Assembly (NCBI GenBank): GCA_022842285.1
Contig: JALHPV010000039.1
Location: forward strand, 1-35,891
Direction: 5' to 3'
Length of the DNA stretch: 35,891 nucleotides
Source: Kofleriaceae bacterium
GTDB taxonomy: Bacteria; Myxococcota_A; Polyangia; Haliangiales; Haliangiaceae
Position 1 is the first letter of the stretch, and every line of letters begins with the position of its first letter. Both the position numbers and the translations under genes were made by a program. The notes beneath the pieces are model-generated. The model was given only the letters and a program-made list of their open reading frames with translations. It ran no database searches and was not told the origin of the DNA. Positions 19,767-23,531 of the stretch are shown piece by piece.

Positions 19767-20915
19767 TCAGCGGCACAGGCCGGTGATCTGGCCGTCATTG
19801 ACGGTGGTCCCGTTGCCGAGCTCGCCGTGCTCGTTCCACCCGAAGCACTCCCAGCCCTCGCTCGTGAGCCCACATGCGTGATGGCCACCGACGGCGAACT
19901 CGAGATAGGTCGCCGCGAGCTTCACCGGGGACGGCGCGGCCGGCTGGAGCGGGACGACGAACCCGCCGTACGTATCCGCGCCCCAGCAGTACACGTCACC
20001 GGCGGCCGTGCCGGCGCACGACCGCTCCCAGTCCACCTGGAGCCACTCGAACACGACGTTCGGGGCGTCGATGGGCGTCGGCGTCCCCGCCACGTTCACG
20101 CCCGCGGTCCCGGTGTAGAGCGGGTTGCCCCAGCACCAGACCTTGCCGCTCGTGTCGAGCGCACACGTGAACGCGCGCTCGGGATTCACGCGGCTCCCGA
20201 CCCCGACCGAGCGCCACGCACCAGGAATCTCGACGGGGTTCGCGCTCGCGATCGGCCCGAGCGCGCCGTCCCGATCCATGCCCCAGCAGTAGAGCGAGTT
20301 GTCGTCCTTCACGCCGCACTGATGAAACGTCCCCGCCGCGAACGCCCGGAACGAGAAGCCCGAGCCCCCGTCGCAGGCCGGGACGGTGCCGTCCTGGTAC
20401 CAGAGGCACTGGCTGTAGAGGTCACCGACCACCTCCTTGAGGGTCGATCCGTCGCCCACGAGCACGGGGGACAGGAGCGGGGTCGCGCCTGGCCCCCACT
20501 CCCACAGCTCGCCGTCGCGCAGCCCGTAGGAGCGCCCGTAGTACTGGAGGAAGATCTTGTCCCACTCGCCGCCGTCGTCGACGCGGGTGGGAACGAGGAC
20601 GGTGTTGTCGTGGCCGACGCCGAGCACGCCATCGACGTTCTCCCCCCAGCACCAGCGATCACCGACGCTGTCGATGTAGCAATTCCCGCGATGGCCGAGC
20701 CACAAGCTCGCGATCGTGCTGCCGCCGCACCCCACCGCCGACGCATCGGGCGTGGTCGACGCATCGGGCATGGTCGACGCATCGGCACCACTGCCTGCGC
20801 CGTCGGCTCCACCGTCCTGCGCCGACGCGTCGCCCCCGGGCTCGAGCGCGGTCGCGTCGAATCCCAGGCGCCCGCATGCGCAGGCGAGACCGGCGAGGCC
20901 GGCGAGGAACCTCAT
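19767..20915 (-). CDS. RCC1-repeat lipoprotein
   Basis: 382 residues. The signal MRFLAGLAGLACAC precedes the anchored Cys, followed by an Asp/Ala/Ser linker with three similar DAST(M/T)PDAS units (about 40-58). The body has RCC1-type seven-bladed propeller repeats, seen as spaced C-x-W-G-x-N/D motifs: WCWGENVDGVLGVG, LYCWGMDRDGALG, VWCWGNPLYTG, VYCWGADTYGG and ECFGWNEHGELGNGT. Cys pairs in most blades suggest an oxidising compartment. Such lipoproteins are abundant in myxobacteria; their targets are unknown. ATG 20915 is the only start placed before a proper signal. Confidence 0.88.
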   Translation of the reverse strand: MRFLAGLAGLACACGRLGFDATALEPGGDASAQDGGADGAGSGADASTMPDASTTPDASAVGCGGSTIASLWLGHRGNCYIDSVGDRWCWGENVDGVLGVGHDNTVLVPTRVDDGGEWDKIFLQYYGRSYGLRDGELWEWGPGATPLLSPVLVGDGSTLKEVVGDLYSQCLWYQDGTVPACDGGSGFSFRAFAAGTFHQCGVKDDNSLYCWGMDRDGALGPIASANPVEIPGAWRSVGVGSRVNPERAFTCALDTSGKVWCWGNPLYTGTAGVNVAGTPTPIDAPNVVFEWLQVDWERSCAGTAAGDVYCWGADTYGGFVVPLQPAAPSPVKLAATYLEFAVGGHHACGLTSEGWECFGWNEHGELGNGTTVNDGQITGLCR

Positions 20916-21131: not shown

Positions 21132-21896
21132 TCACTCGCACGCCGGCGCGCCGACGAGCGAGCCGTAGTCGCACACCGGGATCCCGCATGGCAGCTCGAT
21201 CCGGTCTTGATCGGGCACGTTGACGGGGCACGCCACGGCGTTGCAGACCGTCTCGCACGCAGGACTATCCTCCGTACAGAAGCACGACGGATGGCACAGG
21301 TTCTCGCAGAGCAGCCCCGCCGCCGCATCACAGGTGCACGCGTGGCACTCACTCACGAAGGCCTGCGCACCGATGGGGATCTCGCGGTCTCCAAGCTTGC
21401 ATCCGTCCGTCGGGCAGGGCGCCTCGGTGCGGCGGCGACAGGCCGGCCCATCGTCCGTGCATGCACAGTCGAAGCAGGTCGCGACGACCGTCTCCGCTCC
21501 CGGCGACAATACCTGGCCATCGATGAACACGCATCGTGCATCGGGACAGGTCGCGCGCTTGCGGCACCGGAACCCATAGGTCGTGCACTGGCACTCGACA
21601 CAGTCATCGACGATCACGCGCTCGCCGTATTCGACCAGGGTTCCCGCCAGCATGCAGGCCCCGAAGCCGGGGATGTGCCCCTTCGCGTTCAGCGCGATGG
21701 TGGCCGGTGCCCACGCGCCGGCGGGCACGAACGGTCCCGCATCGGGCGCATCGACGCCCCCATCGAGGGCGACGTCGATCCCCGCATCGAGTGAAGTCGC
21801 ATCCGCGGCCGGCGAGTCGATGACGATCGCGACGTCCTGCCCGCACCCCACGCCCAAGGCCACGCCCAAGGCCACGACGACGAGCAGCGTTCGCAT
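21132..21896 (-). CDS. Cysteine-rich lipoprotein
   Basis: 254 residues from the ATG at 21896. The signal MRTLLVVVALGVALGVGC has lipobox GVGC, followed by an Asp/Ala linker. From about residue 75 the protein has roughly 25 Cys in a repeated pattern: a Gly-x-Gly-Ala-Cys or Asp-Cys start, then CVECQCTTYGFRC, CFDCACTDDGPAC, CHACTCDAAAGLLC. This resembles von Willebrand C / antistasin-like disulfide modules, each about 40 residues, three copies in tandem. It should be an extracytoplasmic binding protein held together by disulfides. No enzyme motif is present. A start five codons earlier (MIRGV) is possible. Confidence 0.78.
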   Translation of the reverse strand: MRTLLVVVALGVALGVGCGQDVAIVIDSPAADATSLDAGIDVALDGGVDAPDAGPFVPAGAWAPATIALNAKGHIPGFGACMLAGTLVEYGERVIVDDCVECQCTTYGFRCRKRATCPDARCVFIDGQVLSPGAETVVATCFDCACTDDGPACRRRTEAPCPTDGCKLGDREIPIGAQAFVSECHACTCDAAAGLLCENLCHPSCFCTEDSPACETVCNAVACPVNVPDQDRIELPCGIPVCDYGSLVGAPACE

Positions 21897-21914
21897 CACG
21901 CCCCGTATCATCTG

Positions 21915-22388
21915 CTACGGCCGCGGGGCGCGGTAGCGCTTCGACGACGGCAGGATCTTCTCCCAGAGGCCGAACGTCGCGGCGATGACGTAGTCGAGCT
22001 CGAGGGTGGCCTTCGTGCGGCGGAGCTCGGGGCGCTGCGGGAGGCAGGCCGCGGCATGGCGCGATGCTTCGAGCTGGTGGAGGACGCCCCGCGACCAGCC
22101 ATTGCCGGCGTAGACGAGGACGCCGGCCATCCAGAGCGCGGCGAGGTCCTCGAGCGCGTAGTGCATCTTCTCGTCGGCGGTGCCCTGGCTATCCTGGTAC
22201 TTGCACTCGATGGCGAGGGCCTTCTGCTCGCGGACACACAGGATGTCGATGCGCCGGTCCTTGCCGATGATGGTCTTGCCGAGGCTGACCTCCCGGTACA
22301 CGACGAGGCCGCTATCGGAGAAGTTGTGGTGGACGTACGCAGCGACGAGGTCGCGGTACTGGTGACCGGTCAGCTCGAGCTTGGCCAT
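21915..22388 (-). CDS. Type II restriction endonuclease, PD-(D/E)XK fold
   Basis: 157 residues. The catalytic core is D48 in GKDRRIDILCV and E61-C-K63 in ALAIECKYQ, the D-x(12)-E-x-K arrangement of the PD-(D/E)XK nuclease superfamily; a Glu in YREVSLGK may be a further ligand. The ATG lies 3 bases after the methyltransferase TAG, so the pair forms one operon with the methyltransferase first, the order that protects the host DNA before the nuclease is made. Recognition sequence cannot be predicted. An orphan nuclease of other function (for example a Vsr-like or Holliday-type role) is unlikely given the neighbour. Confidence 0.78.
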   Translation of the reverse strand: MAKLELTGHQYRDLVAAYVHHNFSDSGLVVYREVSLGKTIIGKDRRIDILCVREQKALAIECKYQDSQGTADEKMHYALEDLAALWMAGVLVYAGNGWSRGVLHQLEASRHAAACLPQRPELRRTKATLELDYVIAATFGLWEKILPSSKRYRAPRP

Positions 22389-22391
22389 GCC

Positions 22392-23531
22392 CTAGACCTG
22401 GAGGCCGAGCTGACCGGGGCTCGCCGAGGTGGAGGCGGTGACGGTGGCGAGCTCCTGGGCCTTGGCGTCGAGCAGGCGAGCGCGGGCGATGTCGACCGCC
22501 TCCAGACACAGGTCGTTGCCGAGGAAGCGACGGTGGTTGGTGACGGCGGCGACCCCGACCGAGCCCGAGCCCATGAAGGGGTCGATGACGAGGTCCCCCG
22601 GATCGGTGGACTGGGTGATGAGCGTGCCGCTGATCACCGGCGGCTTCTCCGCGGGGTAGCCGCCGGAGATGCGCGGGGCCTGGAGGACATCGGCGATGCC
22701 GAGGTCAGCGAGCTTCCGCTTGCCCTTCTCGAAGAAGAGGATGCATTCGTAGCGGGCGCGGTAGTGGTAGCCCATTCCGATCTTGCAGTTGTGGGTAACG
22801 ACGCCGTTGGCGAGCACGAACAGCTCGGCTGCATCCTCGACGGAGATGTCGACCAGGTCGCGCTCGCCGACATCCTCGATGCCGGTGATGGCGACGGTCG
22901 ACGAGGCGGTACCGAAGCGACGGATGAGGAGCTCGTCAGCGATGCGGAAGGTGAGCGCCTCGGCCAGAGATCCGTCGCGACGCATGAACCGGTGGTCGCG
23001 CGAGGCGATCATCGACGTGCCATCGGCGAGCGTGAGGCGCAGGGACGGAGCGCGGGTGCGACGGGTGGCGCGAACGCGGGTGGAGCCACCCTCCGGGATG
23101 CGGACCCGATCGCCGACAGCGATGTCCGCGATCCGGACACTACCGAGGTCCGTGGCGACGAGCGTATCGGGGCCGAGGCACTTGTCCCAGATGAGCGGTT
23201 TCCAGAACTTGAAGCCGGCGGCCTCGGCGAGCGGCTTCGCGACGAACATCGTCTCGGGGTCGCAGTAGAGATAGAAGTGCGAGTTCTTGCGAAGGACGCG
23301 ATAGACCTCGGTGAAGAGCTCGGGGAACCGCGAGTTCGGAAAGATCGAGAACCAGTCGTTGCTCGACGCCTTGCTGTGCTTCAGGCGCGTGGTGGTGCCG
23401 ATCGCACGGTGCTTCTCGAGCGACTCGTACGGTGGATCGGTGACGACGAGATCGATCGACTCGGACGGCAGCGCGCGCAACCAGGCGACGGCGTCGCTCT
23501 GGGTGAGGTGGAACGTGGGAGGACCGTCCAT
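22392..23531 (-). CDS. Beta-class DNA methyltransferase precursor containing a mini-intein
   Basis: 379-residue precursor. The N-extein (1-117) has catalytic motif IV TDPPY and FYLYCDPETMFVAKPL; the C-extein (249-379) has IGMGYHYRARYECILFFEKG and the SAM-binding motif I DPFMGSGSVGVAA. Catalytic motif before SAM motif marks the beta class, which makes N4-methylcytosine or N6-methyladenine. Residues 118-248 are a complete intein inserted in the conserved junction WDK/CKIGMG; joining the flanks restores an uninterrupted methyltransferase of 248 residues. ATG 23531 is preferred over a TTG ten codons upstream because GAGG lies about 10 bases before it. The nuclease gene follows after 3 bases. Until splicing occurs the two halves of the active site are separated. 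Confidence 0.9.
   Translation of the reverse strand: MDGPPTFHLTQSDAVAWLRALPSESIDLVVTDPPYESLEKHRAIGTTTRLKHSKASSNDWFSIFPNSRFPELFTEVYRVLRKNSHFYLYCDPETMFVAKPLAEAAGFKFWKPLIWDKCLGPDTLVATDLGSVRIADIAVGDRVRIPEGGSTRVRATRRTRAPSLRLTLADGTSMIASRDHRFMRRDGSLAEALTFRIADELLIRRFGTASSTVAITGIEDVGERDLVDISVEDAAELFVLANGVVTHNCKIGMGYHYRARYECILFFEKGKRKLADLGIADVLQAPRISGGYPAEKPPVISGTLITQSTDPGDLVIDPFMGSGSVGVAAVTNHRRFLGNDLCLEAVDIARARLLDAKAQELATVTASTSASPGQLGLQV
22788..23180 (-). other. Mini-intein (131 residues) within the methyltransferase gene
   Basis: Block A begins at Cys1 with CLGPDTLVAT. Block B reads GTSMIASRDHRF, with the catalytic His preserved and Ser in place of the usual Thr of TxxH. Block F is VDISVEDAAELFVLANG, lacking the common His, and block G is VVTHN followed by the +1 Cys, so the penultimate His, terminal Asn and nucleophilic Cys are all present. 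There is no homing endonuclease: blocks B and F are joined by about 40 residues. At 131 residues it is near the lower size limit of known natural inteins. It could also be classed as an A-type bacterial intein-like domain. Splicing is predicted, not shown. Confidence 0.9.

Follow-up and report, generated by a model that had tools for sequence, protein, structure and literature searches.

Described inteins and the Kofleriaceae locus

Inteins in N6/N4 DNA methyltransferases have been published from mycobacteriophages, as the DNMT-1/DNMT-2 and Dorothy_75 methylase inteins (PMC5050341, PMC9957025). The insert described here interrupts a methyltransferase gene of a Kofleriaceae bacterium, within a stretch of 35,891 nucleotides that was analysed as a whole (the window; Table 1), and in view of the phage examples the statement of the first-pass annotation that such a host protein is unusual was too strong. 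The phage and Kofleriaceae inteins share the N6/N4 methyltransferase host and a patchy distribution, and the full-length LAGLIDADG form of the former has its counterpart in full-length alleles of Kofleriaceae relatives. However, Dorothy_75-type inteins differ in residing in a phage orphan methylase and in having Ser at +1, Gly at the penultimate position and a length of 327 aa. The Dorothy_75 site (SIAWLYG^SGFPKS) and the window site (LIWDK^CKIGMG) both follow soon after the I-x-W strand and, as a lead obtained by eye, two unrelated inteins may occupy positions no more than one or two residues apart in distantly related methyltransferases, though automatic alignment failed to fix the register. 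No description of a chromosomal nuclease-linked or myxobacterial methyltransferase intein was found in the open-access literature, and what we report is a new intein allele and host setting of a kind that is already known.

The gp41-1 intein (PDB 6qaz, 6riz) resembles the window intein in fold, in its SxxH block B and in the length of the splicing domain, with Z scores of 19.5-19.7 and 28-30% identity for these structures, but it belongs to another host protein and site. The gp41-1 intein is split in nature. The best family-level match of the window intein is to the Rv2578c-type radical SAM inteins (NCBIfam NF038136, 1.3e-10), which differ in host gene and in site (AYC^...HN^CYARP). Radical SAM inteins of this type also form a second same-site series in Kofleriaceae, with full-length, decayed-endonuclease and mini forms (loci L183, L184, L185, L186, L187; genomes G001, G003, G027, G029, G010). 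Among beta-class methyltransferases, CcrM, MboIIA and RsrI are similar to the window gene in fold and in the motif order IV to I, with Z of about 22, but they carry no intein.

Table 1. Features of the interrupted methyltransferase locus (positions in the window)
Feature	Position	Strand	Description
Precursor: intein-interrupted beta-class N6/N4 DNA methyltransferase	22392..23531	minus	379 aa; open frame from ATG
N-extein	23181..23531	minus	117 aa; catalytic motif IV DPPY; ends ...LIWDK; aligned to intein-free homologues
Mini-intein, class 1	22788..23180	minus	131 aa; precursor residues 118-248; C1, S60-x-x-H63, D111, H130, N131
+1 Cys codon TGC	22785..22787	minus	Val, Arg or Lys codon in 9 intein-free Kofleriaceae
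C-extein	22392..22787	minus	Starts at +1 Cys (CKIGMGYHYR...); SAM-binding motif I DPFMGSGS; stop codon; alignment and Pfam
PD-(D/E)XK nuclease (PDDEXK_11), putative restriction partner	21915..22388	minus	157 aa; Pfam 4.8e-34

The interrupted methyltransferase and its splicing domain

The flanks of the insert match Pfam N6_N4_Mtase (E 4.5e-27), the methyltransferase is matched by PADLOC MTase_II (E 6.9e-27), and the precursor model superposes on CcrM with a Z of 22.7 and an rmsd of 2.1 over 187 residues. The coordinates first proposed for the ORF-internal insert (22788-23180) proved exact to the residue. Its placement between motifs IV and I also held and could be refined, since the insertion lies precisely at the IxWxK / IGMGYHYR boundary, which aligns to WRK|SNPM of CcrM. 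The joined exteins are predicted to form a protein of 248 aa (379-131).

The insert starts with CLGPDT, contains block B as S60-R-D-H63 and ends with H130-N131, followed by the +1 Cys, and all the splicing residues named by the first-pass annotation (Cys1, block B His, THN and the +1 Cys) were found in the sequence. Block B has the SxxH form seen in gp41-1 and not TxxH, and at block F the window intein has Glu versus His in gp41-1. The complete class 1 nucleophile set (C1, SxxH block B, His-Asn, C+1) is invariant in the seven same-site copies discussed below.

Profile searches and structure prediction, both proposed earlier as checks, point in the same direction. Pfam Hint_2 matched the insert with an E of 7.4e-6 (26.8 bits, slightly below the 28.4-bit cutoff), the TIGR01443 model of the intein C-terminus gave 22.4 bits, above its cutoff of 15.6, and the PDB sequence match was the gp41-1 intein (E 7.9e-8) over nearly the whole length. 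AlphaFold2 modelled the intein alone with a pLDDT of 95.4, and residues 116-248 of the precursor model superposed on the gp41-1 intein with a Z of 19.7 and an rmsd of 1.5 A over 125 residues and with both termini in register. By Hint_2, TIGR01443 and this Z score, the host protein contains an in-frame splicing domain of the Hint fold. Its size had been described as close to the lower natural limit, which is fair but not exceptional, as the gp41-1 chain in the PDB has 128 aa.

Of the seven same-site copies, that of the window has diverged furthest, which could suggest a degenerating relic without activity, in a methyltransferase that has itself lost function. However, the frame is open, substitutions favour the third codon position (shares of 0.27/0.20/0.53 by position), and the catalytic residues of the methyltransferase, of the intein and of the neighbouring nuclease are all kept, so that a relic is highly improbable. 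Among the seven inteins, 44 of the 131 positions are invariant, including all splicing residues.

No homing endonuclease domain is present in the 131 residues of the window copy. The absence of such a domain was stated correctly for this copy, but not for the same-site inteins of four relatives, which have one; the window copy is therefore a mini-intein, allelic to a homing intein without being one. The 131 residues are almost certainly a class 1 cis-splicing mini-intein, the endonuclease-free allele of a homing intein at WDK^C of a Kofleriaceae type II methyltransferase. We infer that splicing takes place: after in-frame translation the insert would fold as a Hint domain, the Lys117-Cys118 peptide bond would shift to a thioester on Cys1 of the intein, the N-extein would be passed to Cys+1, and cyclisation of Asn131, assisted by His130, would release the intein and leave the 248-aa methyltransferase.

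Allele states at one codon boundary in Kofleriaceae

The gene was surveyed in 30 genomes of Kofleriaceae (Myxococcota), those of the relatives being draft metagenome assemblies, and it occurs in the family in three states: intein-free, with a mini-intein, and with a full-length intein. Mini-inteins are found in the window genome (G000, 131 aa), G004 (149 aa) and G012 (148 aa), and full-length inteins of 405-407 aa in G002, G014, G005 and G024, the last of which belongs to another genus. The seven inteins are about 60-69% identical and share C1, S60, H63, D111, H130 and N131. In the nine intein-free species compared, WDK-[VRK]-x-IGMGYHYR is continuous, with no gap, and alignment places all intein-bearing and intein-free genes at a single, identical codon boundary, where these close homologues have an empty site. 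When an even draw of 379 genomes, which samples the species of the phylum, was searched using the mini-intein as query, matches came from G000 and G024 only.

It is the relatives, with empty, mini and full-length states at one codon boundary, that decide the identity of the insert. A search for homologues carrying the 131 residues as a native part of the enzyme turned up the contrary, namely empty sites; the reading of the insert as an intein is thus borne out by sequence models and structure, and chiefly by these sites. The Hint fold also matches the structure of a bacterial intein-like (BIL) domain (2lwy, Z 18.9), and the insert could be read as a BIL domain that leaves its flanks unligated, or as a native methyltransferase subdomain. 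Neither is credible beyond a very small chance, because among 80 named loci from genome contigs the intein is present in six (those of the six relatives named above, the window locus not being counted) and the sequence of the other 73 with a readable site continues straight across it, as does that of the plasmid and viral homologues inspected, while Asn131 and Cys+1 are present in 7/7 copies. The native domain was rejected on this continuity. BIL domains usually belong to other kinds of protein and often miss the +1 nucleophile, which also counts against them here.

We also considered, and rejected, an intein at the equivalent site in phages or plasmids. Phage records searched with the full-length intein showed no detectable similarity, the plasmid and viral methyltransferase homologues inspected have no insert at the site, and the mini-intein gave merely weak matches to phages (24-28% identity, in Salicola and Lak phages). 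A betaproteobacterial locus (L070, 38% over most of the query) was likewise set aside as a candidate bearer, since it has an unrelated, Cys-containing insertion further downstream. In this homologue (L070, 4001-5119) the insertion lies between VPRVRG and YPTEKP, is considerably longer than 100 residues, has CxxC pairs near both ends and by eye is not an intein. In G011 the methyltransferase gene is split over contigs C21 (L045/L102) and C217 (L153), which overlap by about 127 nt, with the break five codons short of the intein site. The population may be mixed at this position, or the assembly graph may simply be interrupted there.

In the full-length alleles, a C2HC zinc-finger-like motif (C-x2-C-x12-H-x4-C, conserved), an HTH-like segment and a LAGLIDADG endonuclease lie between the same two Hint halves. 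The G002 intein matches LAGLIDADG_3 above cutoff (4.1e-6) and HTH_17 weakly, and the acidic motifs LGKxIGLxAAEG and GxxxGxxEGDGHW are conserved in the alignment of all four copies. The endonuclease part has a dN of about 0.23-0.32 against a dS of 1.4-2.5, so high that the ratio is rough. The minis of G004 and G012 retain CTRPV, the seam found ahead of the endonuclease in full-length copies, which makes loss of the endonuclease the likelier direction, and the mini forms appear to have arisen by such loss; comparison of one loss with several gave an AU p of 0.38. In the relatives, the endonuclease would cut intein-free alleles and so drive copying of the intein; the patchy distribution of the intein and the +1 Cys pattern described below are indirect indications of such homing.

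The +1 codon is TGC (Cys) in all seven intein-bearing genes, whereas the nine intein-free Kofleriaceae have Val, Arg or Lys at this position and none has Cys, Ser or Thr. Since one of these three residues is required at +1 for splicing, either Cys was co-converted with the intein or only Cys alleles were invaded, and in the latter case the invaded alleles are no longer seen intein-free in the family. In several more distant homologues, from Acidobacteria, Paraglaciecola, Vibrio and Polyangiaceae, Cys occurs without an intein and is therefore tolerated at this position. A sign test of +1 Cys against intein presence was concordant but not significant, with just two to five independent pairs. Going by these codons, the contrast between 7/7 Cys and the Val, Arg or Lys of the intein-free genes suggests that the intein probably supplies its own nucleophile when homing, through co-conversion of flanking sequence. 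A splicing-friendly residue brought in with the conversion tract has already been discussed for a phage methylase insertion in a 2025 paper (PMC11855218).

On the extein tree a single clade of intein-bearing genes was rejected (AU p 0.0004) and five changes of intein state are needed. The intein tree is weak and compatible with the extein topologies (AU p 0.10-0.45), therefore it does not decide between lateral spread and old vertical descent with losses, and an argument for lateral spread from tree conflict was dropped. It is possible, though we hold it somewhat doubtful, that the intein is ancestral in Kofleriaceae and was inherited vertically with repeated loss rather than homing between species. 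This would agree with intein distances that exceed extein distances among the copies, so that recent transfer is not seen, and with the extein topologies that the intein data leave standing. On the other hand, the state changes and the rejected clade speak against it, the endonuclease of the full-length copies is under purifying constraint, and precise loss should leave the +1 Cys behind, yet 0/9 intein-free Kofleriaceae have Cys, Ser or Thr there.

Probable restriction-modification setting and significance for the family

The PD-(D/E)XK gene starts 3 nt past the methyltransferase stop (junction TAG ggc ATG). Of 79 homologous loci, 52 have this nuclease gene next to the methyltransferase and in the same orientation, and the pairing recurs in five phyla (Myxococcota, Cyanobacteriota, Acidobacteriota, Actinomycetota and Pseudomonadota). 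Among the loci without an adjacent nuclease, several are contig ends or proteobacterial members; the nuclease is absent beside most proteobacterial and the plasmid and prophage methyltransferases inspected. Its residues D48, E61 and K63 are nearly invariant. This conserved adjacency makes a two-gene restriction-modification operon the best reading of the pair, and the type II assignment of the first-pass annotation, judged by gene content, gains support from the MTase_II match, from methyltransferase motifs IV and I and from the linked endonuclease gene. The nuclease found no match among PADLOC and NCBIfam models, and PDDEXK_11 is apparently an unlisted restriction partner. Further downstream are two Cys-rich lipoprotein-like ORFs (19767-20915 and 21132-21911), one with RCC1-type repeats by eye and the other VWC-like (Pfam VWC 7.9e-6, just below cutoff).

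An intein that failed to splice would take away the antidote and leave the nuclease in place, which would strongly favour the maintenance of splicing. It could also be proposed that the intein is kept as a regulator, with conditional splicing (for example by redox state or temperature) timing active methyltransferase against nuclease. Mini-inteins without endonuclease do persist under constraint, and the site is at a conserved methyltransferase loop. However, constraint is expected regardless of regulation, since the methyltransferase would be inactivated by any copy that does not splice, no feature that senses conditions was found, and presence of the intein is patchy, all of which makes a regulatory role unlikely.

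With relatives that have either no insert or a bigger, nuclease-encoding one, the insert is genuine but can be regarded as a rather ordinary selfish element in a new location. More tentatively, one selfish element may be nested in another, with a homing intein in the antidote gene of a restriction-modification system, where its loss or failed splicing would expose the genome to the nuclease, and with the native Val, Arg or Lys overwritten by its own +1 Cys through co-conversion. If this is true, the intein could invade alleles that are unable to splice it as they stand. The 131-aa form may, in addition, be useful to protein engineers as a compact splicing domain. Within Kofleriaceae alone, a single intein site can be studied empty, with a full-length intein and with a form that lacks the endonuclease, in a host gene whose failure should be costly. 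Two questions thereby become testable, namely whether an intein entering a site that has no +1 nucleophile brings its own, and whether inteins are protected from loss when their host gene is of the addiction type.
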